21,655 nucleotides of DNA, from IMG/VR virus record IMGVR_UViG_3300034167_000157, positions 1-21,655 of that record; one strand, written 5' to 3'. The position numbers and the translations under genes were made by a program. Below the pieces are notes generated by a model. That model did no database searches. It was not told where the DNA came from and worked only from the letters and a program-made list of their open reading frames with translations. Source of the DNA: a virus. Of the stretch, positions 3,718 to 18,389 are shown piece by piece (position 1 is the first letter of the stretch; every line of letters starts with the position of its first letter).

Positions 3718-3959
3718 TGTGGGGGTGGGTTGGTGAGTTAGTTACCGCCCTACTGAATTTCTTTGAACGAAGGGTTTCCAAGGAAACATATGTTAAAGAA
3801 GCCGATCCAACTGCTAATGGTACTAGGGAGCGTTTTGCTCAACGGGTGCGGGAGTTCCGTGCTGCTCGTACCATCGGGGACGCCCGTCCAACTAGCGGAG
3901 CCTGTGACTGCAAAGGTGTTTGTAGTTCAGAAGGACGGAACAAAGATCAAGTCGGCTAA
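3717..3959 (+). CDS. Small amphipathic protein of the putative lysis block
   Basis: 80 residues. The ATG shares its A with the upstream stop (TAATG), and AAGG at 3703-3706 could serve as ribosome binding site. The first 20 residues (MWGWVGELVTALLNFFERRV) form a Trp-rich amphipathic or short membrane helix, followed by a charged region with R-E-R-F-A-Q-R-V-R-E-F. The last third (SGACDCKGVCSSEG) looks unconserved and lies in the part that also encodes the lipoprotein in another frame. The frame relation resembles Rz/Rz1, but the protein lacks the long periplasmic coiled coil of a classical inner-membrane spanin. Function unknown; a membrane-associated accessory lysis protein is possible. Confidence 0.65.
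   Translation: MWGWVGELVTALLNFFERRVSKETYVKEADPTANGTRERFAQRVREFRAARTIGDARPTSGACDCKGVCSSEGRNKDQVG
3780..3784 (+). promoter_or_regulatory. Internal ribosome binding site for the nested lipoprotein gene
   Basis: AAGGA lies 5 bases before ATG at 3790, inside the coding sequence of the 80-residue protein. It selects 3790 over the upstream in-frame ATG at 3763, which has no such site and would put a charged nine-residue extension before the signal peptide. Confidence 0.65.
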
Positions 3960-4038
3960 TCGTGTAGAAATTCCCGCCGGATGGTGGGCTGCTGATGTGC
4001 CTGAAGAACCCGGCATTGCGCCGGAGATCGTACCCTGA
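3790..4038 (+). CDS. Small lipoprotein, possible outer-membrane spanin, nested out of frame
   Basis: 82 residues from ATG 3790. The N-terminus is a classical lipoprotein signal peptide: MLKK, a hydrophobic stretch, then lipobox L-L-N-G-C with the acylated Cys at residue 20. The mature part begins CGSSVLLVPSGTPVQLAEP and has a conserved-looking V-x-K-D-G segment and P-A-G-W-W near the end. Such short phage lipoproteins are common in late operons. About 170 of its 249 bases overlap the gene at 3717-3959 in the +1 frame. The nested arrangement and the neighbouring holin-like gene suggest an Rz1-like role in disrupting the outer membrane. A longer form starting at 3763 (91 residues) is possible but less likely. 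Confidence 0.72.
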   Translation: MLKKPIQLLMVLGSVLLNGCGSSVLLVPSGTPVQLAEPVTAKVFVVQKDGTKIKSANRVEIPAGWWAADVPEEPGIAPEIVP

Positions 4039-4066
4039 CGACAAGTCTGAGTGGTGCGTCTAACCG

Positions 4067-4098
4067 GAACCCTATAGAGGAATCTATGGGGTTCTTTT
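4067..4098 (+). terminator. Rho-independent terminator before the capsid gene
   Basis: An 11-bp stem, 4067-4077 paired with 4084-4094 (one G-U pair, otherwise perfect), with a 6-base loop and followed by TTTT at 4095-4098 and another T-rich stretch. It lies 28 bases after the lipoprotein stop and would end or reduce transcription from the portal/lysis block. Confidence 0.85.
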
Positions 4099-4104
4099 CA
4101 TTTG

Positions 4105-4129
4105 TGCATAATTTTAGATGGATTATGCA
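4105..4129. repeat. 8-bp inverted repeat TGCATAAT / ATTATGCA
   Basis: Perfect 8-bp arms at 4105-4112 and 4122-4129 with a 9-base spacer. The right arm runs on into GCATAAAATGC (4127-4137), a second small palindrome, so TGCAT/ATGC words cluster here. It lies between a terminator and the capsid gene with no gene overlapping. It could be a protein-binding site or part of a promoter. There is no U-tract to make it a terminator. Confidence 0.5.
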
Positions 4130-4175
4130 TAAAATGCTATGACTGCTTTTAGCCCCTTGCGAGGGAGAACTCTAA
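4130..4175 (+). promoter_or_regulatory. Possible capsid promoter region (weak)
   Basis: A capsid promoter is expected between the terminator at 4067-4098 and the capsid start. The best phage-type initiation sequence is GGGAGA at 4163-4168, which matches the first transcribed bases of T7 class III promoters, but the preceding 17 bases match the T7 consensus poorly. TAAAAT at 4130-4135 resembles a bacterial -10 box but lacks a convincing -35 box at 16-18 bases. The promoter location is inferred from context only. The remainder, 4169-4234, is an untranslated leader. Confidence 0.25.
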
Positions 4176-4234
4176 GCGCGTTACAGCAAACTCCTCTTCT
4201 ATCTAATCATTCACTAATTTAGGAAACTACAACT

Positions 4235-5401
4235 ATGGGACAATATACCGACCCGTCACGCCTTGGTCTAGTTAACGCCTCAGGCTCTGATACCGAAGCA
4301 CTCTTTCTGAAGATCTTCAGCGGCGAAATTGTTACGACTTTTGAAAAGTCTAACATCATGATGCCTCTCCATCGTGTTCGCACGATTCAGACAGGTAAGT
4401 CCGCAATCTTCCCTGTAACCGGAACGGCAAGCGCGGGTTACCACACCCCCGGCGAATCTGTTCTTTCGCAGAGTACAGCAGGTACTGCCTATGGTACAGC
4501 CACTTCCGGCGGTGCTGTAGGTACTTTGACTGTGCCTGTGGAAACTGTGGCTCAGACTTCCAAGTATCTCAACAAGTTCAAGCACAACGAGCGCACCGTC
4601 TTCATCGACGATATTCTCGTGTCTTCAACGTTCGTTGCAGATATCGATGAGATGAAGAATCACTACGATGTTCGCTCAATCTACTCGACTGAAATTGGTC
4701 GATCATTGGCTTACACCGCAGATAAGAACCTGATCCGCACCGTCATCGGTGGCGCTCGTGTAACTACAGATCGCTTTGGTGTTGCTTCAGGTACTGATAC
4801 TACTTATCTTGGTGCTATTTCCAACATCGGACACAATGGTGGCTCCAACGGAATGCATTCGGCATCTATTCTTGCAGGATTTGCAAATGTTGCTCGAAAG
4901 ATGGATGAGCGCAACGTGCCAAACGATGAGCGGTTTGCAGTAGTTACCCCTGAAGTTTACTATCTGTTGCTCGGTGGTAACAGCGATGCAATTAACCGGG
5001 ACTTCTCCCCGGACAACGGTTCGATTGCAACGGGACAGATTGCTTCGGCATACGGCATCCGTATTATGAAGAGCAATCACATTCCACAGACTAACGAAGT
5101 TAGTGGAAGTGGTACTGTGGATCCACTTGCGGGTGCAGCGGGTGTACGCAATAACCCAAACGGTGGTTCCCTTAAGTACTCCGGTCTTAACTACAACACC
5201 TCGGCGGCAAAGACGCAGGGAATCATCTTCCACCGTGAAGCCATTGCAACGGTGAAGTTGCTTGATCTGTCTCTTGAAACCGACTACATCATGGAGCGTA
5301 TGGGTACGCTGATGTTGGCTAAGTACGCAATGGGTCACAACATTCTTCGTGAAGAGTGCTGCTATGAACTCCAAAGCGCGTCCAACGGTACTGCTGCCTA
5401 A
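4235..5401 (+). CDS. 10: Major capsid protein, T7 gp10-like (HK97 fold)
   Basis: 388 residues. It builds the icosahedral shell. Strong likeness to T7 gp10A throughout: LFLKIFSGEIVTTFEKSNI (about 24-42), an R-x-I-x-x-G-K-S-A-x-F-P-V segment (about 49-61), MNHYDVRS (about 140-147), HREAIATVKLLDLSLE (about 332-347) and AKYAMGHNILREE (about 359-371). The ATG has AGGAAA at 4221-4226 upstream. It is flanked by terminators on both sides with its own leader, so it forms a separately controlled unit, as expected for the most abundant virion protein. No slippery site giving a 10B-like extension is visible near the stop. Confidence 0.97.
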   Translation: MGQYTDPSRLGLVNASGSDTEALFLKIFSGEIVTTFEKSNIMMPLHRVRTIQTGKSAIFPVTGTASAGYHTPGESVLSQSTAGTAYGTATSGGAVGTLTVPVETVAQTSKYLNKFKHNERTVFIDDILVSSTFVADIDEMKNHYDVRSIYSTEIGRSLAYTADKNLIRTVIGGARVTTDRFGVASGTDTTYLGAISNIGHNGGSNGMHSASILAGFANVARKMDERNVPNDERFAVVTPEVYYLLLGGNSDAINRDFSPDNGSIATGQIASAYGIRIMKSNHIPQTNEVSGSGTVDPLAGAAGVRNNPNGGSLKYSGLNYNTSAAKTQGIIFHREAIATVKLLDLSLETDYIMERMGTLMLAKYAMGHNILREECCYELQSASNGTAA

Positions 5402-5418
5402 TTGAGTTACTAGTTTTT

Positions 5419-5463
5419 AAGAGAGGGTGGTTCCCTAAGTTGGGTTCCACCCTCTCTTTTCTT
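5419..5463 (+). terminator. Strong terminator after the capsid gene (T-phi analogue)
   Basis: A 12-bp perfect stem, 5419-5430 with 5447-5458, with inner CCC/GGG pairing and then TTTCTTT. TTTTT at 5414-5418 on the left side gives an A-tract in the other orientation, so it could also act on the opposite strand. The position, 18 bases past the capsid stop and before the tail tube gene, is that of the T7 T-phi terminator. Leakage through it would set the lower level of tail and ejection gene expression. Confidence 0.92.
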
Positions 5464-5474
5464 TGTCTATCTTT

Positions 5475-5486
5475 CTAGGATCCTAG
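5475..5486. repeat. Perfect 12-bp palindrome covering the gp11 ribosome binding site
   Basis: CTAGGATCCTAG is a perfect palindrome ending one base before ATG 5488. Its AGGA (5477-5480) is the only candidate ribosome binding site. Intrastrand pairing would be poor because of the missing loop, so pairing between transcripts or DNA-level binding are alternatives to chance. Confidence 0.5.
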
Positions 5487-5487
5487 A

Positions 5488-6090
5488 ATGGCTCTAACAA
5501 AAACAAATAAACTACAGGCAATCAACACGATGCTTTCGGCGATTGGAGAGCCACCTGTTAACTCGTTGGCAGCCCAACGCGCAGACTCGCTGATTGCTTT
5601 GACCATCCTAGATGAGACCACCCGCGACATTCAGTCCTACGGATGGCAGTTCAACACCGATGAGAATGTGGTGATGACCCCTGAGACAACTACCGGGTTC
5701 CTCTACATTTCCGACAGCATTGTACGCGTGGACATTGCCTACACAGATGACACCGTTGCCCTTGAGGTGGTGATCCGTGGCAATCGCCTGTACAATCGGT
5801 TGACCTCGTCCTACGCCTTTACAGAGGCGCTAACGACCACACAGGTAACCTTGCTAGACTTCGATGAAATGCCTGAGATCGCCAAGCGATATATTACGAT
5901 TCGTGCCGCTCGTATCTTTCAAGATCGTGTAGTAGGCTCCTCTACGCTTCATGCGTTTGAGATGCAAGATGAAATCACCGCCCTAGCGCGTCTTACTGAA
6001 TACGAGAATGAAGTTGGCGACTACAGCATCTTCCAAGGTGAAAGCGTCATTCGTCCCTTCCTGCGTCAAGGTTCTTACAGGATCTATTAA
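5488..6090 (+). CDS. 11: Tail tubular protein A (gatekeeper), T7 gp11-like
   Basis: 200 residues (T7 gp11: 196). It forms the ring joining the portal to the nozzle and retains DNA. Conserved features are ML-x-A-I-G-E-P-P-V near residues 15-24, D-I-Q-S-Y-G-W-Q-F-N near 47-56 and a D-E-M-P-E segment near 126-130, all as in T7 gp11. The ATG follows AGGA within a palindrome. The stop overlaps the next start (TAATG), coupling production of gp11 and gp12. Confidence 0.95.
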   Translation: MALTKTNKLQAINTMLSAIGEPPVNSLAAQRADSLIALTILDETTRDIQSYGWQFNTDENVVMTPETTTGFLYISDSIVRVDIAYTDDTVALEVVIRGNRLYNRLTSSYAFTEALTTTQVTLLDFDEMPEIAKRYITIRAARIFQDRVVGSSTLHAFEMQDEITALARLTEYENEVGDYSIFQGESVIRPFLRQGSYRIY

Positions 6091-8981
6091 TGCCTCTTAT
6101 TACGACTAGCATTCCTAATCTTATTGGTGGCGTAAGCCAACAGCCTCCCGCTATTCGGGCTAGTAATGAAGCCGAAGTAATTGAGAATGCCGTACCATCG
6201 GCGGTAGAAGGTTTGCTAAAGAGGGCTCCTTCCGAACACCTTGCATTTATTACTGATGCGTCCGGAGCCGGACTTGTGGCGGCTACTTCAGAAACCCCAT
6301 TTGTTCATCTGATTGAACGAGATGAAACTGAGCGGTATGTTCTTGTCATATTAAAAGACGGTACCCCTGCTGTATATAACCTTGCAGGAGTGCGGCAAAC
6401 ATTAACAATAGCGCCGGGAGCCAATCTTGGAACTGCCTTTCACTATCAACGAAAAGCCCTGACAATTGGTGATTTAACTTTTCTGTTAAACACAACAGTA
6501 CCTACATTAGCAAGCACCACTTTATCTGCACAGTCTCCTGCAAACCCACTCAGAAACGGACTTATTTGGGTTAAACAATCCAACTATGACCGCCAATTTC
6601 TTGTAAACATTGTTCCGGTAAATACGACAGTTGCCCCCATAAACCCTCCAACAACGTATAAATTTAAAACCGCAAGTTCAGGCGAAAACGGTACAAGTTA
6701 TGTGGCTAGTTCTTTATTTAATGGTGCAATTCCGGCAGCAACTGTTGTTGCAACAAATATAACAGGAACCATTGTCAATGATGTTTTAACTGTCAGTATT
6801 GTAGGTACCGCAAATTTACAACTTGGACTTGAAATATTTTCAAGCAGCCCAAACACCTCATCAACGGGTGTTAATGGTGCTTCAACCTCATTACTCTCAC
6901 AGCAAATTGTAGGTTTTGGAACTAATGGTGCTGTGCCATCTAATGGTGGTTTGGGAACCTACAGATTAAAGAATGCTACGGGTTCAGGCACAAAAAACTT
7001 TACTGCCGCCCTTGCTAACCGTATTGAAGCCCGAACTCCCGCCAATGGCGGCTTTTACGAGGGCATACCTGCTAATGCCACTACCTCAGGAGGTATTGAC
7101 TCTGCGGGAGGTATATATGCTGCAAGCGCCATTTACAACAACACCATTCATGTTGTCGGAAGTGAAGACTTTAAGATGGGTGCAGGAGATTCAATTGGTA
7201 ACGCCGGAATTGCTTCTTTTAGAGCCAAGACTACTCGTTTTGAAGACCTTCCTCCGGAAGCCCCGCACAACTATATGATCAAGATTGAAGGGGTTCCTGA
7301 CAACGACACAGATGATTATTGGGTAAAGTTTGTAGCCGAAAACGGTACCTTTGGTCCCGGAGTGTGGGAAGAGTCTCTTGCTCCCGGTCTTAAATATCTT
7401 TGGCAATACGATAGTATGCCTTTGATTTTGATTCGGCAATCCGACACTACGTTCTTGCTAAAACAAGCAGACGGAATTACAGGAACTCCCGGCTCAGGTG
7501 GGGTGCCATTGGGTGCCGATTACTCAGCCTTTAAGTGGGAACAACGCTATATTGGTGACGATAAAACTTGCCCCTTTCCTTCGTTTACCGGAAGCAAAGT
7601 TCAAGACATGGTGTTCTTTCAAAACCGTCTTGGATTTCTGTCGGGTGAGAATCTTGTCTTCAGTCGTGTAGGTGAATTCTTTAACTTCTTTAAAGAGTCC
7701 GCAACACAACTTTCAGACACCGACCCAATTGATATCGCATCAAGTAGCCCTCGCGTTGGTAAGGTTATGGCTGCTGTGCCTTTCAACACAGATCTAATTA
7801 TCTTTACACCTACAAGTCAACTTGCGCTACGGGCTGACGCTGTCTTTACGCCAAGCACAGTTAGTCTTGTGCCTGTAGGTGAGTTTGAGAACCTGTCTCC
7901 AATAGTCAAACCTGTACCGACAGCCAACTCCATTTTCTTTATGTACGGAAACGGCGCTTATTTGGGTATGCGTGAATTGATTCCGCAACCCGCGCTAAGT
8001 GGTGCCTATCTTGCAGATGAACTGACTAGCCGAGTGCCTCAGTACATCGAAGGTCCTGTTACTTGCCTTGCTGCGGCTTCCCATGACACCTTTAATGTTG
8101 TTGTGGCTAACGGGGATATGTATGGGTACCGCTACTTCCTATCAGAGCGACAGAAGGTGCAATCAGCGTGGTTTAAGTTTACTTTCAAAGATACTGCAAC
8201 CTTTGCTAACACTAAGGCTCGTCCGGTGTGGGCAGGTTTTGTCGAGTCAGATCTTTATACAATAGTGCTTCGTCCAAAGACTTCTACCACAAATTGGATT
8301 ACTTTTGAAAAGATAAAAGTAGGCTTAGGAACTACTGATACCTTGATCTCCGGCGTAGACACTACAACCTTTCTTGACCAAAGAAAGTATTTTGCCACTA
8401 GTGCTTCAAATGCCGGGGTATATGCCACCAACACTAACACAACGACCTTTACTTTACCAAAACCACTAAGTTATAGTTCTACTATAACGCAAGTAGTGTC
8501 TTCTGTGGGGTATGTAATCCCAATTGTTTCCGGCACAGTTTACTCAGACGCTGCCCCTTCAGTACAAGCAACCGTTACCGTGCAGGGCAAATGGGATGAT
8601 CAAAAAGTTTGGATTGGTACGAAGTATAGTATGAACTATACGTTCTCTCCTTTTTACCTGCGAAACGCTAATAACAACAGTTCTTTTGTTTCCGGAAGAT
8701 ATCAAATGCGATATCTGTCTATTCAATATGCGGAAACAGGTTACTTTAAGGTGTTAGTTACTCTTAAGAACGAAGACCCATACGAATATTTCTTAACGGC
8801 TAATACCGTAGGACTGATGGTTCTCAATGCTCCCGCAACGGCTTCGGGGACTTTTCGACTTCCGCTGTATTCTAAACACGATAATCTTACAGTTACCGTT
8901 ATTAACGATTCACCTTTTGCTTGTAAATTGCTTGCGGCTGAACTTGAAGCCATCTATGAAACTCGTGCAATGCGGAGTTAA
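6090..8981 (+). CDS. 12: Tail tubular protein B (nozzle), T7 gp12-like, with inserted domain
   Basis: 963 residues against 794 in T7. It forms the hexameric tail nozzle carrying the fibres. The N-terminus (I-P-N-L-I-G-G-V-S-Q-Q-P at about 8-19) and the C-terminal L-x-A-A-E-L-E-A-I-Y-x-x-R-x-x-R-S are typical of gp12. Residues about 186-315 are extra relative to T7: Gly/Thr/Asn/Ser-rich, with a pattern G-T-I-x-N-D-V-L-T-V, then I-V-G-F-G-T-N-G, then G-G-L-G-T-Y-R-L. This resembles a beta-structured module found repeatedly in phage tail proteins. That segment is also visibly AT-richer than its surroundings. The start shares TAATG with gp11, and the stop abuts the gp13-like start. Confidence 0.95.
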   Translation: MPLITTSIPNLIGGVSQQPPAIRASNEAEVIENAVPSAVEGLLKRAPSEHLAFITDASGAGLVAATSETPFVHLIERDETERYVLVILKDGTPAVYNLAGVRQTLTIAPGANLGTAFHYQRKALTIGDLTFLLNTTVPTLASTTLSAQSPANPLRNGLIWVKQSNYDRQFLVNIVPVNTTVAPINPPTTYKFKTASSGENGTSYVASSLFNGAIPAATVVATNITGTIVNDVLTVSIVGTANLQLGLEIFSSSPNTSSTGVNGASTSLLSQQIVGFGTNGAVPSNGGLGTYRLKNATGSGTKNFTAALANRIEARTPANGGFYEGIPANATTSGGIDSAGGIYAASAIYNNTIHVVGSEDFKMGAGDSIGNAGIASFRAKTTRFEDLPPEAPHNYMIKIEGVPDNDTDDYWVKFVAENGTFGPGVWEESLAPGLKYLWQYDSMPLILIRQSDTTFLLKQADGITGTPGSGGVPLGADYSAFKWEQRYIGDDKTCPFPSFTGSKVQDMVFFQNRLGFLSGENLVFSRVGEFFNFFKESATQLSDTDPIDIASSSPRVGKVMAAVPFNTDLIIFTPTSQLALRADAVFTPSTVSLVPVGEFENLSPIVKPVPTANSIFFMYGNGAYLGMRELIPQPALSGAYLADELTSRVPQYIEGPVTCLAAASHDTFNVVVANGDMYGYRYFLSERQKVQSAWFKFTFKDTATFANTKARPVWAGFVESDLYTIVLRPKTSTTNWITFEKIKVGLGTTDTLISGVDTTTFLDQRKYFATSASNAGVYATNTNTTTFTLPKPLSYSSTITQVVSSVGYVIPIVSGTVYSDAAPSVQATVTVQGKWDDQKVWIGTKYSMNYTFSPFYLRNANNNSSFVSGRYQMRYLSIQYAETGYFKVLVTLKNEDPYEYFLTANTVGLMVLNAPATASGTFRLPLYSKHDNLTVTVINDSPFACKLLAAELEAIYETRAMRS

Positions 8982-12665: not shown

Positions 12666-15600
12666 ATGCCGATTGAACAAAATGCTTTTCCGGATCCACT
12701 CTTTGATTTTAGTCCTTCTGAAAAATTAAAGTTACAGCAAGACTTAACTAGGGCGCGTCCACAGACAGAATTAGAAAAGGATTATTCTGAATCTCCTTTT
12801 GGCGGTATTGTTGCGGGTGCGCGTAATTCCACTACAGGCGCAATCGTCATGCGGGGCGTACAAATAGCGACAGATTTCTTTGATCCTCAAGGTTCTCAAG
12901 ATCCTTTAAATTTTCAACCTCGCTCTGAGACAAAATCTACCGATCCTTTTTCGTGGGGGCAGGACAACAATCTTGATTCCATTGCCACAGATTTGCAACG
13001 AGTCCCAAAGACAGAGTGGGGTTATTTACTAGCCTCAAGTAACTACAAAGAATATGCAGCAAAGCGGGACTTTGTCATGTTGGGGCTTCCGGAAACACAA
13101 GCAAACATCAAAGGAAATGTTGCTTTAGGATCCATGTTGGGAACTTTTGCTGACGTAACCGCAATGGTGGCGATTGGTGCCGCAGTCGAACCATTAGCCC
13201 TTGCCGGATTGGGCGCTCGTACTACTATGGCGGGAGAAGCGGTTTTTAAAGAAAGTACAGGGTTTGGCATACGAAGCCTTGCTCAAACCGTAACAAGTGC
13301 AGCAAATACTGTAGGGCGCACTAATCTGACTTTCCGTCATGGCGCACTAATGATGGCTCAAGAAGGAATGTTTATTGCTGTAAAGGAAGGCATTGATCCT
13401 AACTACCATCCGGACGCTTCAACTATTCTTCACGACCTAGTTGTAGCCGGATCTATTGGTGGCATTGCGGGTGGCTTGGTGTTTGGACGCACGATGCTTC
13501 GATCAAGCATTATGGAAGCCGCCGAACAACTGAAGCGCACCAAAGTTATAAACCTTCCCGGCGGTTTTACGCTACACAGCATTCCTGATCTGCCTTTTAG
13601 TTCTACAGCGAATGCAGACAAGGTGTTGTTTGCCACATCGGGAGCCGCCAACGCAGATGAACTTGGGGCTAGTCTTCACGCTGATTGGGAAAAGACGGGA
13701 GATATGTTTGCTCCGGGAACACGAACAACGTCAGGGGCTACTCCGGTAATCTCCGGTGGCGCTGTAGGCGGTACGGTAGATAGCCTTGGAAACGTCACAA
13801 ACTTTCCTCCTTTCATTGAAGCCACTTCAGCCCGGTTGTCAAAGAAGGGTGTGTGGCAACGTCCGCTGTACGCAGCAACCGACTTTGGAAAGCGTCTGTT
13901 CCATACAATGTCATCTCCTGATGACTTGTTGGCTATGCTTAAGGGAAACCTTCTAGAGAAGCGCAAGTTTACATTTAGGTTGAGCGCGGTAGACGGTCCT
14001 ATTCGTGCTGAGTTTGAGGCTGAGAAGTTAACTGCGCGAGTAGCGGGAACATTTACTGACACACCCCTACCCAACCCCTCAATGGGTAGCACACCCGCAC
14101 GAGCGGGTTACGATGCTGCAAACGTCTCGCTTGATGTAGAATCCAATGCACGAACCATTACAAAGCGGTTGAAATCCGTTACTGTTAAGGTAAGTCAAGT
14201 AACAGAGCAACAACTAATGGATCTCCGCAACGGCATGATGGCTGCCGGATTGAAGGAGTTGCCACAGGTTGGAGACGAGATCCGCTTTATGCGTCCGGGA
14301 TCTAAGATCAAACGACCCAAGATGTTGGTTCGTGGGGCTCAATCAACCGTTAAAACGGTAGTAGCGGCTCTTGGAGATCTAGGCATTCCTATTGATGAAG
14401 CCCTCTTTAAGAGTGTTACGCGTGGCGTTCTAGCCGCCGAACAAAGCCGTCTTACAGGAACCGCCTTTAATGCCAAACTGTGGGAAGAAGTTTCACGAGA
14501 AGTAGGCATTGCGTCACACGTTGAATCTATTGCTACAGCCATTAAGGGCAACGCTCTTCCTCGCTTTGGCACCGTAGACCGCAATGTGCTTGATGTAGCC
14601 ACACGAGAAAACATGATTACGTCAGTCTTTGAAGGCTTTCGTAAGAATATGCATCTAGATCCTACAAATCCCAAGTCACTTATCTTTGAAGTGTTGCAAC
14701 AGATTAAGGATCGTGGGGGGCAAGTCACACGAACAACTGTTGGTGAAGTTGTTGATGAATTGCGTATGGTGGTGAACAATCCCGCCAAGCGTTTGAATGC
14801 CAACGGTAGGCGCACCCTTGATCGAACCGCACGGCGCACGGCTGTTGCAGAAATTATTAATAAGCGGGTACCGGATACCGGAACTCCTATTGATATTCCT
14901 CAATCGTATTTTAAGAACTTGGGACCTTTGGCGCGAGAAGCCAAGGCAGGAGGAACCCTCTATGCTAAAAGTGGTCCGGGAAAGGTGGCTACTACCGATC
15001 CTAACTATCCGGTTCAGCGCGGAATGGCGGCAATGCAAGATCGAATTCAACGCCTTGCTCAAACAGTAAACAAGAAGACCGGAAAGCCTTACTTAACAAC
15101 AGATGAAGCGCGAGTGATGACGCGGCTTATGGAGCGTTTAGGTCCTGACAACTTTGCAAACTTTGGACTTCGCATCCGCGATATTGCAAACATGGATGGG
15201 TCTTTTGACTTTCTGCGTGATGTAGTCACTATCACTAATACTGCAATGAATGGTGGGCGCTTTAGCAAGACCTTTGTACACGAAATTTGGCACGCTTTTA
15301 CAGGCTATATCGACAACAGTATGTTGGTGCGGATGAATAAGGATTATGTAAAAGCAGTTAAGAAGATGCACTTGAAAAATGGAGTCAAATGGGATGACGC
15401 TTGGGGATCAAATCAAGCGGATCTTCAAAAGGCGGTATATCAACTTGGTGTGCAACGCCCCAACATTCCGTTTGATGATCTCTATCAACTTACTAATCTT
15501 GATGAGTGGGTCGTAGGCAATCTAACCTCATCAACCCTAAAGCGTTTGAAGTTAGAAAAAGACACAAAGAACGTGTTTGGCTATTTGCGTCTTATGATGG

Positions 15601-18389
15601 AAAACGCTTCAGTAGAAATTCGTGCTGTGTTTGGTGCCGCAAAGTACGACAAACTTACTAAAGATTGGATGAACGGTCGCTACCGTGTTGCACGGGCGCA
15701 GATCCCACAGAACGCAACGCTAACCGGAGCGGCTAGACAAGCCCGTAATCGCCTTGGTCGCGCCCCCGGTAACTTCAAAAATGGCATGGCGGGATGGCTA
15801 AAAGGAAATCAAGCAACTCCCGGTGGACCACAGGGAATGTTTGGTCCTCTACCGTCTAACGTCATGTACGCCATGTTTGATGATACGCCGCGTACTACTT
15901 TGCACCTAGGTCCGCTCAGTAACGTCTTAAATCAAGCCGCACTTGCTATGCAGTCAGAGAACGGCATGGTGCGTTACATGGCAAATATTTCGTTTAACGC
16001 TCGGCGTGTGGGAGATGACGCACAGGCTACTACCCTCTTTGAACACGGTATTCAAATGGTGCAGTCTGTTCTATACCATTTTACTACGGGATACCGAAAT
16101 GGATATACCAAGTTTGCAATGGAAGCGCAAGGCAACGCTACTCCGGCATCGGAACTTAATCTCTTTCATGCACTAGCCGCTCGTTGGGGAGCAAAGAATA
16201 AAGCCGTGCGCCAAGAGTTTGATACTCGTGTTATTAAGGTTCTTCGATCGGGTACGGCTGATTCAAATCTTGCAGTCAATGAAACAGCCAAGGGCGTTCA
16301 GAAGATTTTCCAACGCTTGCACGAGGTTGCTTTTGAAGCCGGAGTTCCGGGCTTTATGAATGGTGCAGTACTTAACTATATGCCGCGCTTGTGGCGCTTT
16401 GATCACATTCGGAGGCTTGCCTCTACTCCGGCAGGAATGGCTGATCTTACATCCTTGATTGAAAATGCTTTGGGACGTAGTGGACGGAAGGTAGTTATTG
16501 ATGGCGTAGAAACTACGTTTACCGGAGACGTTCGTGAAGCCGCAGTAGTGTTTGCTGAACGCTTGAAGAACATTGCTCTTGAAACAGAGAATGCTCCTCT
16601 TATGGCGCAGGATCAAGAACTCTTTGAGGCTCTTGGGGCGTTGTTAGGACCAATTAAGCCCAACACCTCAAGCCCTACACCTTTCGGTAAGGGTCGCGTA
16701 CTCCTTGACGAAGGTAGTTCAGTTGCGCTTACAGCAGATCATTTAGGAAATGGCAGCGCAACCCTCAGTATTTCGGATTTGTTACACAATAACCTACCAA
16801 TGGTCTTGAAGCGATACACCACTTCTGTTATGGGAGCGGTGAATGAGCGTAAGTTCTTGAATGCAATGAACGATGCTTTGATTGCTAAGGGCGCTGTTGG
16901 ACCTACAGAGACGCTTGCTAATGGCACAACGCAAGTCCTACCTTTTGAAAGAATTACGTCCATAGACAAGATGTTTGCTATGGCTCGAAAGGTAAATGGA
17001 GCCATTCTTCCAAAACACGAAAAGGGTTTGCGCGAAGTTATGGCAGCCATGACCTTTGAACCCTTGCACTCAGGTACTACTCAATTTAGCGATCAGGCTA
17101 AGGGTATCTTGATGGCTTATGGTTATCTCCTCAAGGGTGGACAGTTTGGTTTGGCGCAGTTGGGCGAAACGGCTCGTGTTGTGGGAACCTTTGGGCTAGT
17201 TAAGACCATTAATCAACTTCCAATTCTTACGGAGATGGTTACCAATTGGCACAACCTTGATCGTCCTACACAGAACTTTGCTTCATGGATTGATACTTGG
17301 ATGTCTCCTTCTACAGATCGTCTCCGGCGTGAGTTCTTGTCTGTGGGGCTTGATACGTTAAGTGAAGGTCCCGGAACGCTAGGAAGAGCCCGACAGGGTC
17401 TAGATGTGGCTGCTAATCTGCTATCGGATATCTCCGGACTAGCGCCACTAACTAGTTGGACACAACAGTTAACAGCCGCAGCAAGTATGCAACACCTATG
17501 GGAAGCCGCACGAGGGGGAGCGCGTTTGGATGCTGCCACCCTTAAAGGCTTAGGATTAACAACTGCTCAATATGACACGTTGATTTCTTATGTTGGCACC
17601 AATGCTCTAACTAAAGCCGGATTCCTTGGTGAGCGCATTGTTGGTATGCAGAACATGAGCATGAATAAGATTGAGATGGATCTGCTACGAGACTTTGTTG
17701 ACCGCGCTATTAAAACCCGTATTCAAGATATGCCAACCCGTGGTGACTTCGCTAAGAGCCTATTTGGATTTTGGGGAAGTGCTGCTACGCAGTTTAGATC
17801 CTTTAACTTGAAGGGCGTAGATAACTTCCTATTACAGAATATTGGTCGAGTACAGCAAGGCGGTGGTAAGCGTGTGGCTGCGGAAATTGGCTCAACGCTT
17901 ATCTTCTCCGGAATGATTGCATATGGACGTAACTATGCCGATTGGCGTTCATATCAAGCCTCTAATGATTTTAAGAAGGCTGACGAAGTTGCCAAGACTC
18001 TAACTAAGGATGGCTTTATCCGTGGTGCGCTTGCAGGTCCTTCGGAATTCTTCCTTGCAATTCTTGGTGTTGATGCTGCTTGGAAACACACCGTAAGTGA
18101 AGATCCGCTCTTCTCACAGTATCGCTATAGCGGACAATCTACCTTTGGGGTTCCCCTTGAGGATACGCTTGTAAGAACCTATGGACTTGCGGAAGATCTG
18201 TATGGAGCCACCGTAGGTAGAGCCACAGGTTCAAGCCTTGAACGCGAAATGACTCAGCGTACTTTGCACTCGTTTAGACTTATGCTTCCCGCGCAGAATC
18301 TGCCGGGACTTAAGCAGTTTTTCAACATCCAAGAATCTGAACTTTCAGACTATTTACGCCTACGTCCAACCCAACCCCGCGACAGGTAA
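12666..18389 (+). CDS. 16: Internal virion (ejection) protein D, gp16-like giant with zinc-protease motif
   Basis: 1907 residues, much longer than T7 gp16 (1318). In T7 gp16 is ejected, cuts peptidoglycan with an N-terminal transglycosylase and completes the channel into the cytoplasm. Here no transglycosylase E-S-x-x signature is visible at the N-terminus. There are Gly/Ala-rich hydrophobic segments at about 155-185 and 255-275 that could insert in membranes. Residues 872-876 are HEIWH, preceded by a strand-like D-V-V-T-I and F-S-K-T-F-V, and followed 71 residues later by L-D-E-W (E947), a candidate third zinc ligand. The C-terminal half has V-P-G-F-x-x-G-x-x-x-N-Y-M-P-R (about 1229-1243) and a final R-L-M-L-P-A-Q-N-L-P-G-L segment, as gp16-like proteins often do. 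gp16 identity is secure from context; protease activity is inferred. Confidence 0.93.
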   Translation: MPIEQNAFPDPLFDFSPSEKLKLQQDLTRARPQTELEKDYSESPFGGIVAGARNSTTGAIVMRGVQIATDFFDPQGSQDPLNFQPRSETKSTDPFSWGQDNNLDSIATDLQRVPKTEWGYLLASSNYKEYAAKRDFVMLGLPETQANIKGNVALGSMLGTFADVTAMVAIGAAVEPLALAGLGARTTMAGEAVFKESTGFGIRSLAQTVTSAANTVGRTNLTFRHGALMMAQEGMFIAVKEGIDPNYHPDASTILHDLVVAGSIGGIAGGLVFGRTMLRSSIMEAAEQLKRTKVINLPGGFTLHSIPDLPFSSTANADKVLFATSGAANADELGASLHADWEKTGDMFAPGTRTTSGATPVISGGAVGGTVDSLGNVTNFPPFIEATSARLSKKGVWQRPLYAATDFGKRLFHTMSSPDDLLAMLKGNLLEKRKFTFRLSAVDGPIRAEFEAEKLTARVAGTFTDTPLPNPSMGSTPARAGYDAANVSLDVESNARTITKRLKSVTVKVSQVTEQQLMDLRNGMMAAGLKELPQVGDEIRFMRPGSKIKRPKMLVRGAQSTVKTVVAALGDLGIPIDEALFKSVTRGVLAAEQSRLTGTAFNAKLWEEVSREVGIASHVESIATAIKGNALPRFGTVDRNVLDVATRENMITSVFEGFRKNMHLDPTNPKSLIFEVLQQIKDRGGQVTRTTVGEVVDELRMVVNNPAKRLNANGRRTLDRTARRTAVAEIINKRVPDTGTPIDIPQSYFKNLGPLAREAKAGGTLYAKSGPGKVATTDPNYPVQRGMAAMQDRIQRLAQTVNKKTGKPYLTTDEARVMTRLMERLGPDNFANFGLRIRDIANMDGSFDFLRDVVTITNTAMNGGRFSKTFVHEIWHAFTGYIDNSMLVRMNKDYVKAVKKMHLKNGVKWDDAWGSNQADLQKAVYQLGVQRPNIPFDDLYQLTNLDEWVVGNLTSSTLKRLKLEKDTKNVFGYLRLMMENASVEIRAVFGAAKYDKLTKDWMNGRYRVARAQIPQNATLTGAARQARNRLGRAPGNFKNGMAGWLKGNQATPGGPQGMFGPLPSNVMYAMFDDTPRTTLHLGPLSNVLNQAALAMQSENGMVRYMANISFNARRVGDDAQATTLFEHGIQMVQSVLYHFTTGYRNGYTKFAMEAQGNATPASELNLFHALAARWGAKNKAVRQEFDTRVIKVLRSGTADSNLAVNETAKGVQKIFQRLHEVAFEAGVPGFMNGAVLNYMPRLWRFDHIRRLASTPAGMADLTSLIENALGRSGRKVVIDGVETTFTGDVREAAVVFAERLKNIALETENAPLMAQDQELFEALGALLGPIKPNTSSPTPFGKGRVLLDEGSSVALTADHLGNGSATLSISDLLHNNLPMVLKRYTTSVMGAVNERKFLNAMNDALIAKGAVGPTETLANGTTQVLPFERITSIDKMFAMARKVNGAILPKHEKGLREVMAAMTFEPLHSGTTQFSDQAKGILMAYGYLLKGGQFGLAQLGETARVVGTFGLVKTINQLPILTEMVTNWHNLDRPTQNFASWIDTWMSPSTDRLRREFLSVGLDTLSEGPGTLGRARQGLDVAANLLSDISGLAPLTSWTQQLTAAASMQHLWEAARGGARLDAATLKGLGLTTAQYDTLISYVGTNALTKAGFLGERIVGMQNMSMNKIEMDLLRDFVDRAIKTRIQDMPTRGDFAKSLFGFWGSAATQFRSFNLKGVDNFLLQNIGRVQQGGGKRVAAEIGSTLIFSGMIAYGRNYADWRSYQASNDFKKADEVAKTLTKDGFIRGALAGPSEFFLAILGVDAAWKHTVSEDPLFSQYRYSGQSTFGVPLEDTLVRTYGLAEDLYGATVGRATGSSLEREMTQRTLHSFRLMLPAQNLPGLKQFFNIQESELSDYLRLRPTQPRDR

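Follow-up and report, generated by a model that had tools for sequence, protein, structure and literature searches.

The ejection proteins of bacteriophage T7 are described as building a channel and contributing, at most, an enzyme that cuts the cell wall, and a 2022 review lists an N-terminal transglycosylase and DNA binding as the activities of gp16, with no protease being named (PMC8954989). Among the domains found in the polyvalent proteins of phages and plasmids, zincin-like ones are the most frequent, and they are also present in the ejected virion RNA polymerase of phage N4 (Iyer et al. 2017, PMC5512222), whose HExxH domain was confirmed by cryo-electron microscopy (PMC12633501). The zinc site of the Pro-Pro endopeptidase PPEP-3 consists of His153, His157 and Glu197, with Tyr190 as oxyanion tyrosine (PMC12828418). 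Thus, zincins in giant phage virion proteins are already known, whereas for a protease in a T7-type gp16 no report was found in the literature searched, the coverage of which was incomplete. Here, a zincin-like segment in the gp16-slot ejection protein of the virus record IMGVR_UViG_3300034167_000157 was analysed; the whole stretch of 21,655 bases is referred to as the window.

The gp16-slot ejection protein of the window (12666 to 18389, plus strand, as for all features below; 1907 amino acids) contains the motif HEIWH at residues 872-876 (15279 to 15293), in which H872 and H876 are the putative zinc ligands and E873 the putative general base. The predicted third zinc ligand, E947 (15504 to 15506), is located 71 residues past H876 within LDEW (residues 945-948). 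Both elements had been pointed out in a preliminary description made from the window sequence alone; the translation of the open reading frame (ORF) bears out the motif, and the position of E947 was likewise confirmed. Two features had been overlooked there, namely Y940 (15483 to 15485), the likely transition-state tyrosine seven residues ahead of E947, and the absence of the surrounding block from sister phages.

The closest described systems by fold are the M34 gluzincins, represented by the catalytic domain of anthrax lethal factor (Pfam ATLF, PF07737) and by PPEP-2 and PPEP-3, which have the same predicted fold, the HExxH helix and a Glu as third ligand. The Tyr at Glu minus 7 is common to PPEP-3 (Tyr190/Glu197) and the window (Y940/E947). 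Sequence identity of lethal factor and the PPEPs to the phage domain is about 12-15%, with no significant sequence-profile match, and the distance from the first His to the Glu is 57-119 residues in the phage family versus 44 in PPEP-3. Unlike these proteins, the phage domain is embedded in an ejection protein. In this respect it resembles the metallopeptidase (MPTase) domains of polyvalent proteins including N4, which likewise place a zincin in a giant podovirus virion protein with proposed delivery along with the genome, and which have in common with it a core of N-terminal helix, three-stranded sheet, HExxH helix and Glu helix. The hhalign comparison of the N4 zincin domain with the window family was weak and, unlike the MPTase domains, the window family is located in the gp16 slot within virion modules of T7 type, with no other catalytic domain being recognised in the window protein. 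Like the gene of T7 gp16, that of the window protein lies between gp14/gp15 and the tail fibre gene, and the two proteins share a C-terminal region matched by PHROG 342. T7 gp16 starts with a transglycosylase (PMC8954989), whereas the window protein has a zincin in its middle part and no detected transglycosylase; this N-terminal enzyme varies by phage even among known gp16 proteins.

Conservation of the zinc site in a family of viral proteins

Across the 17 window ORFs checked, the HExxH in the gp16-slot protein is the only one. From the composition of this protein 0.015 HExxH motifs are expected, and the motif was present in 33 of 2000 shuffled versions (about 1.6%). Taken alone, HEIWH in the window protein is therefore no more than suggestive as evidence for a metalloprotease.

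In order to find relatives, viral contigs were searched with a DNA pattern for F[VIM]HEIWH, which gave 12 matches. Five of these (L015, L019, L020, L021, L023) were short chance ORFs and were dropped, and three were divergent giant ORFs, L016, L017 and L022, with 33%, 23% and 41% identity to the window domain, respectively. All three carry Y-x6-E at the position of Y940/E947, although they had been chosen without any downstream criterion. A subsequent alignment-seeded scan led to 46 loci, of which 42 ORFs were examined; loci were accepted by tblastn to the query, which biases the set towards members with a preserved core, and of the 72 pattern matches 26 remained unconfirmed and were left out. 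Among the 39 ORFs caught by the downstream motif Y[QR]...[DN]E[WY] alone (23 after removal of 90% redundancy), every single one has an HExxH upstream, 57-114 residues ahead of the Glu, against about 0.0006 per 100 residues expected from composition. Either motif is thus a predictor of the other, as ORFs found by HExxH carry Y-x6-E and ORFs found by the downstream motif carry HExxH. An artefact of searching repeatedly with the same motif was rejected for this reason, and homologues lacking HExxH, which would have spoken against the zinc site, were not encountered among the 39.

In a non-redundant alignment of 28 sequences, 15-38% identical to the window (the near copy L002 lies outside that range), no column is invariant other than those of one Gly, H872, E873, H876, Y940 and E947. 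The conservation of H872, H876 and E947 in homologues, proposed earlier as a check, was accordingly found in all divergent sequences. A chance HExxH is excluded by this conservation, which makes the zinc-site motif compelling at the level of sequence.

Predicted fold of the domain

The window domain was modelled by AlphaFold2 with the family alignment as input, and a confident region (predicted local distance difference test, pLDDT, mostly 80-94) was obtained for about residues 776-1011 (14991 to 15698). This zincin domain, assigned as M34-like gluzincin from the model and its fold matches, is wider than the span of 15100-15640 (about residues 812-992) given in the preliminary description. The model consists of helices, a three-stranded sheet (834-838, 845-848, 853-857), the HExxH helix 866-881 and the third-ligand helix 945-968. 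The strands agree with the edge strand suspected earlier ahead of the motif, and, as judged from the layout of its predicted elements, the model is in favour of a zinc site rather than of histidines lying apart. A second model, of the canonical short-loop member L036, reached a mean pLDDT of 86.2, with 94-97 around the active site, and the zincin core is present in both models.

Many of the top rows in Foldseek searches against the PDB were zincins, including selecase, abylysin, jannalysin, IrrE/PprI, BlaR1, M61, LTA4H, lethal factor and the N4 virion polymerase. With VIA-align, the best match of the L036 model was the lethal factor catalytic domain (Z 9.7, 145 aligned residues, root mean square deviation 3.8), followed by PPEP-2 (Z 8.1) and PPEP-3 (Z 7.5), while almost every other family scored no higher than 6.9; the window's own model reached Z 7.0 at best. 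Profile searches of PDB sequences gave weak matches only, with IrrE (E 1.1) as the single zincin among them. It is practically certain that the domain has a zincin fold. Its placement with the lethal-factor/PPEP gluzincins is based on fold, ligands and Tyr spacing together, the support from sequence profiles being marginal; what the models indicate is a likeness, short of proof of family membership. Overall, the gluzincin-type zinc metalloprotease domain with the ligands H872, H876 and E947 postulated in the preliminary description appears well supported by the 28-sequence conservation, the two predicted structures and the matches to lethal factor and PPEPs.

Distribution of the family

The zincin family is absent from Pfam, NCBIfam and PHROGs. 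When the window domain and the divergent members L016, L017, L022, L031 and L036 were compared by tblastn with 50,697 phage records, no match was obtained, and a search of plasmids returned chance matches only. Two genome scans by exact short peptide matches, which would miss divergent members, gave no relatives and a single bacterial contig from a metagenome-assembled genome (MAG), respectively. The domain therefore appears to be almost confined to viruses. The MAG contig (L071, 8.8 kb) encodes the domain at 3954-6854, with a profile E-value of 3e-45 and Y-x6-E, and may be of viral origin and have been binned together with the MAG.

A cultured relative may be found in the Bordetella phage vB_BbrP_BB8 (Autographiviridae, Gyeongsanvirus), whose internal protein D (L072, 17615-22270) occupies the gp16 slot and contains an unannotated HEISH at residue 577 with Y-x6-E 54 residues on. 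This protein, annotated as 'internal protein D' only, is very divergent and beyond tblastn range; its profile E-value is 0.0045 and it came third in the viral structure search. By these sequence features it is probably a divergent family member in a cultured T7-like phage. In the uncultured phage MedDCM-OCT-S31-C1 (L074, 20332-24786), HESWH was observed at residue 1263 of a 1484-residue 'hypothetical' protein with a profile E-value of 0.00058, and no Y-x6-E was detected downstream of it.

The domain as a module and its selection

The domain is part of a block of about residues 757-1062 (14934 to 15851) that is present in L002 and L003 and missing from L004, L005, L006 and L007. In the latter four, most of either flank shows 54-75% identity to the window protein, and a short linker takes the place of the block. 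Six related records, three of which are nearly 40 kb long, were screened with a profile of the domain, and it was found in L002 only. The possibility that it is general to all gp16-like proteins was rejected, as the sisters lack it and so do the gp16-like proteins in three records of related marine phages. A tree of the domain places the window together with L025, L026 and L028 (support 100/99), and the ejection proteins of L016/L028 and L022/L025 match PHROG 6651. No similarity of the nearest domain relatives to the N- or C-terminal parts of the window protein was detected by phmmer or by hhalign, the flank profiles used in the latter being shallow (number of effective sequences, Neff, 1.3-1.9), which leaves room for remote flank homology. 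Family genes are located past the nozzle and gp13 genes and often ahead of the fibre and terminase genes.

As the block is missing from sisters that keep the flanks and the nearest domain relatives are found in dissimilar ejection-protein backbones, the domain behaves as a shuffled module. The dissimilar flanks of these relatives favour gain or swap of the block in the window lineage over its loss in the sisters. The ratio of nonsynonymous to synonymous substitution rates (dN/dS) between the window and L002 is 0.18 for the domain and 0.15 for the whole protein, indicating purifying selection; thus, the domain is maintained. Additionally, the gp16-slot protein of L006 (6935-12133) was seen to contain a different insert of ~140 residues at window residue about 552, which is absent from the window, L004, L005 and L007 and represents a second insertion site in the gp16-slot protein.

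Genomic context of the gp16-slot gene

The window represents the virion module of a T7-like podovirus and encodes portal, scaffold, capsid, tail tube, nozzle, gp13-like, gp14, gp15-slot and gp16-slot proteins, tail fibre and terminase, the large terminase gene being interrupted by the window end. The gp14 call is based on PF24072 (E 1.5e-26), and the gp16-slot gene is flanked by the gp14/gp15-slot genes on one side and the tail fibre gene on the other. A T7-type single-subunit RNA polymerase is encoded in the sister phages L005, L007 and L010 (each nearly 40 kb). Residues 1174-1894 of the gp16-slot protein match PHROG 342, 'internal virion protein with endolysin domain' (E 5.6e-31). A Pfam scan of the protein, including its uncharacterised flanks, recognised no further domain. 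The strongest hydrophobic segments are located at residues 152-182 and 254-272. Despite these segments, the first 300 residues (12666 to 13565) are the fastest-evolving part of the protein with a dN/dS of 0.27, compared to 0.09 for residues 300-775 and 1096-1907 (window versus L002).

Discussion

The segment is read here as a zinc metallopeptidase module of lethal-factor/PPEP fold in the gp16-slot ejection protein, serving as an accessory effector that cuts host proteins; a probability of roughly 0.6 is assigned to this reading. In the proposed mechanism, zinc would be bound by H872, H876 and E947, water would be activated by E873 and the transition state would be steadied by Y940. The module would be packaged and, as infection begins, ejected together with the gp16-slot protein, and at or across the inner membrane it would cut one or a few host proteins of the envelope, secretion or defence. 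Since sisters with related capsid, gp14, gp15 and gp16 flanks lack the module, it is unlikely to be needed for channel assembly or for maturing the gp16-slot protein, and it would serve as an accessory rather than as a core component of the channel. Peptidase activity is very likely for the family and probable for the window's own copy. The chances that the main substrate is a host protein are considered even, with self-processing on the one hand and a wall peptide or no substrate on the other as lesser possibilities. Of the substrates suggested in the preliminary description, i.e. an envelope protein, peptidoglycan cross-links, a host defence protein or the ejection proteins themselves, peptidoglycan is the least favoured.

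Several observations weigh against this reading. The best Foldseek E-values of the two models, 0.12 and 0.087, are weak, and the Pfam ATLF profile matches 4 of 28 members with a marginal best E-value of 0.0039 and leaves the window domain unmatched. In other gluzincins, an acid at the third ligand +4 supports a zinc histidine. This residue is Glu in all 42 other family ORFs examined and Gly in the window (G951, 15516 to 15518) and in L002, so that, judged by this residue, the window copy could be weaker or differently tuned. Moreover, packaging and ejection are presumed from homology and gene order.

As main rival explanation, the peptidase might process its own surroundings, cleaving the giant ejection protein or gp14/gp15 at head maturation or after ejection and thereby freeing domains. 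Such a role has been put forward for the zincins in polyvalent proteins, P1 DdrB among them (PMC5512222), and the window domain is placed between two long flanking regions; however, sisters with the same flanks, gp14 and gp15 do without it, and the N4 polymerase is packaged uncut in spite of its zincin-like domain (PMC5512222), which renders this explanation unlikely. A loss of catalysis, leaving the domain as a structural remnant in the window's clade, is suggested by the missing +4 acid in the window and L002 and appears rather improbable given that no zinc-site residue has been lost, that Y940 is conserved and that the domain is under purifying selection with a dN/dS of 0.18.

Replacement of the T7 gp16 transglycosylase by a zincin that cuts the peptide cross-links of peptidoglycan would fit the lack of SLT matches in six sister records and of a Pfam transglycosylase match in the window protein, a divergent enzyme being possible in both cases, and the mobility of the lytic domain between ejection proteins is known (PMC8954989). 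Yet in the sisters without the zincin no hydrolase was detected in its place, and the nearest folds are protein cutters. In L017, the gp15-slot ORF (5682-8594, 971 amino acids) matches LysM, endolysin and transglycosylase PHROGs and the zincin is still encoded in the next ORF, which makes wall-peptide cutting less likely, and this explanation is regarded as doubtful at best. Finally, HExxH is also known in hydroxylase-like enzymes (PMC12633501), and one family member gave a sub-threshold mod_HExxH match (E 0.051); nevertheless, with Tyr-x6-Glu and the closest folds being those of gluzincin proteases, a metal-dependent hydroxylase-like enzyme instead of a protease is very improbable.

If the reading as an ejected host-directed peptidase is true, dozens of viral contigs encode a conserved, swappable lethal-factor-like peptidase in their gp16 slot, and host proteins may be attacked before any phage gene is read. 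Its occurrence in otherwise dissimilar ejection proteins of many viruses suggests an interchangeable weapon. Tentatively, T7-type phages may carry a previously unrecognised protease cartridge in the gp16 slot, which is swapped between backbones and would be delivered to the inner membrane as infection sets in, there to cut a specific host protein, for example one of defence or the envelope. A natural comparison is offered by the window phage and its sisters without the module, which have related capsid, gp14, gp15 and gp16 flanks and differ in the presence of the enzyme, and by which the role of ejected proteases becomes directly testable.
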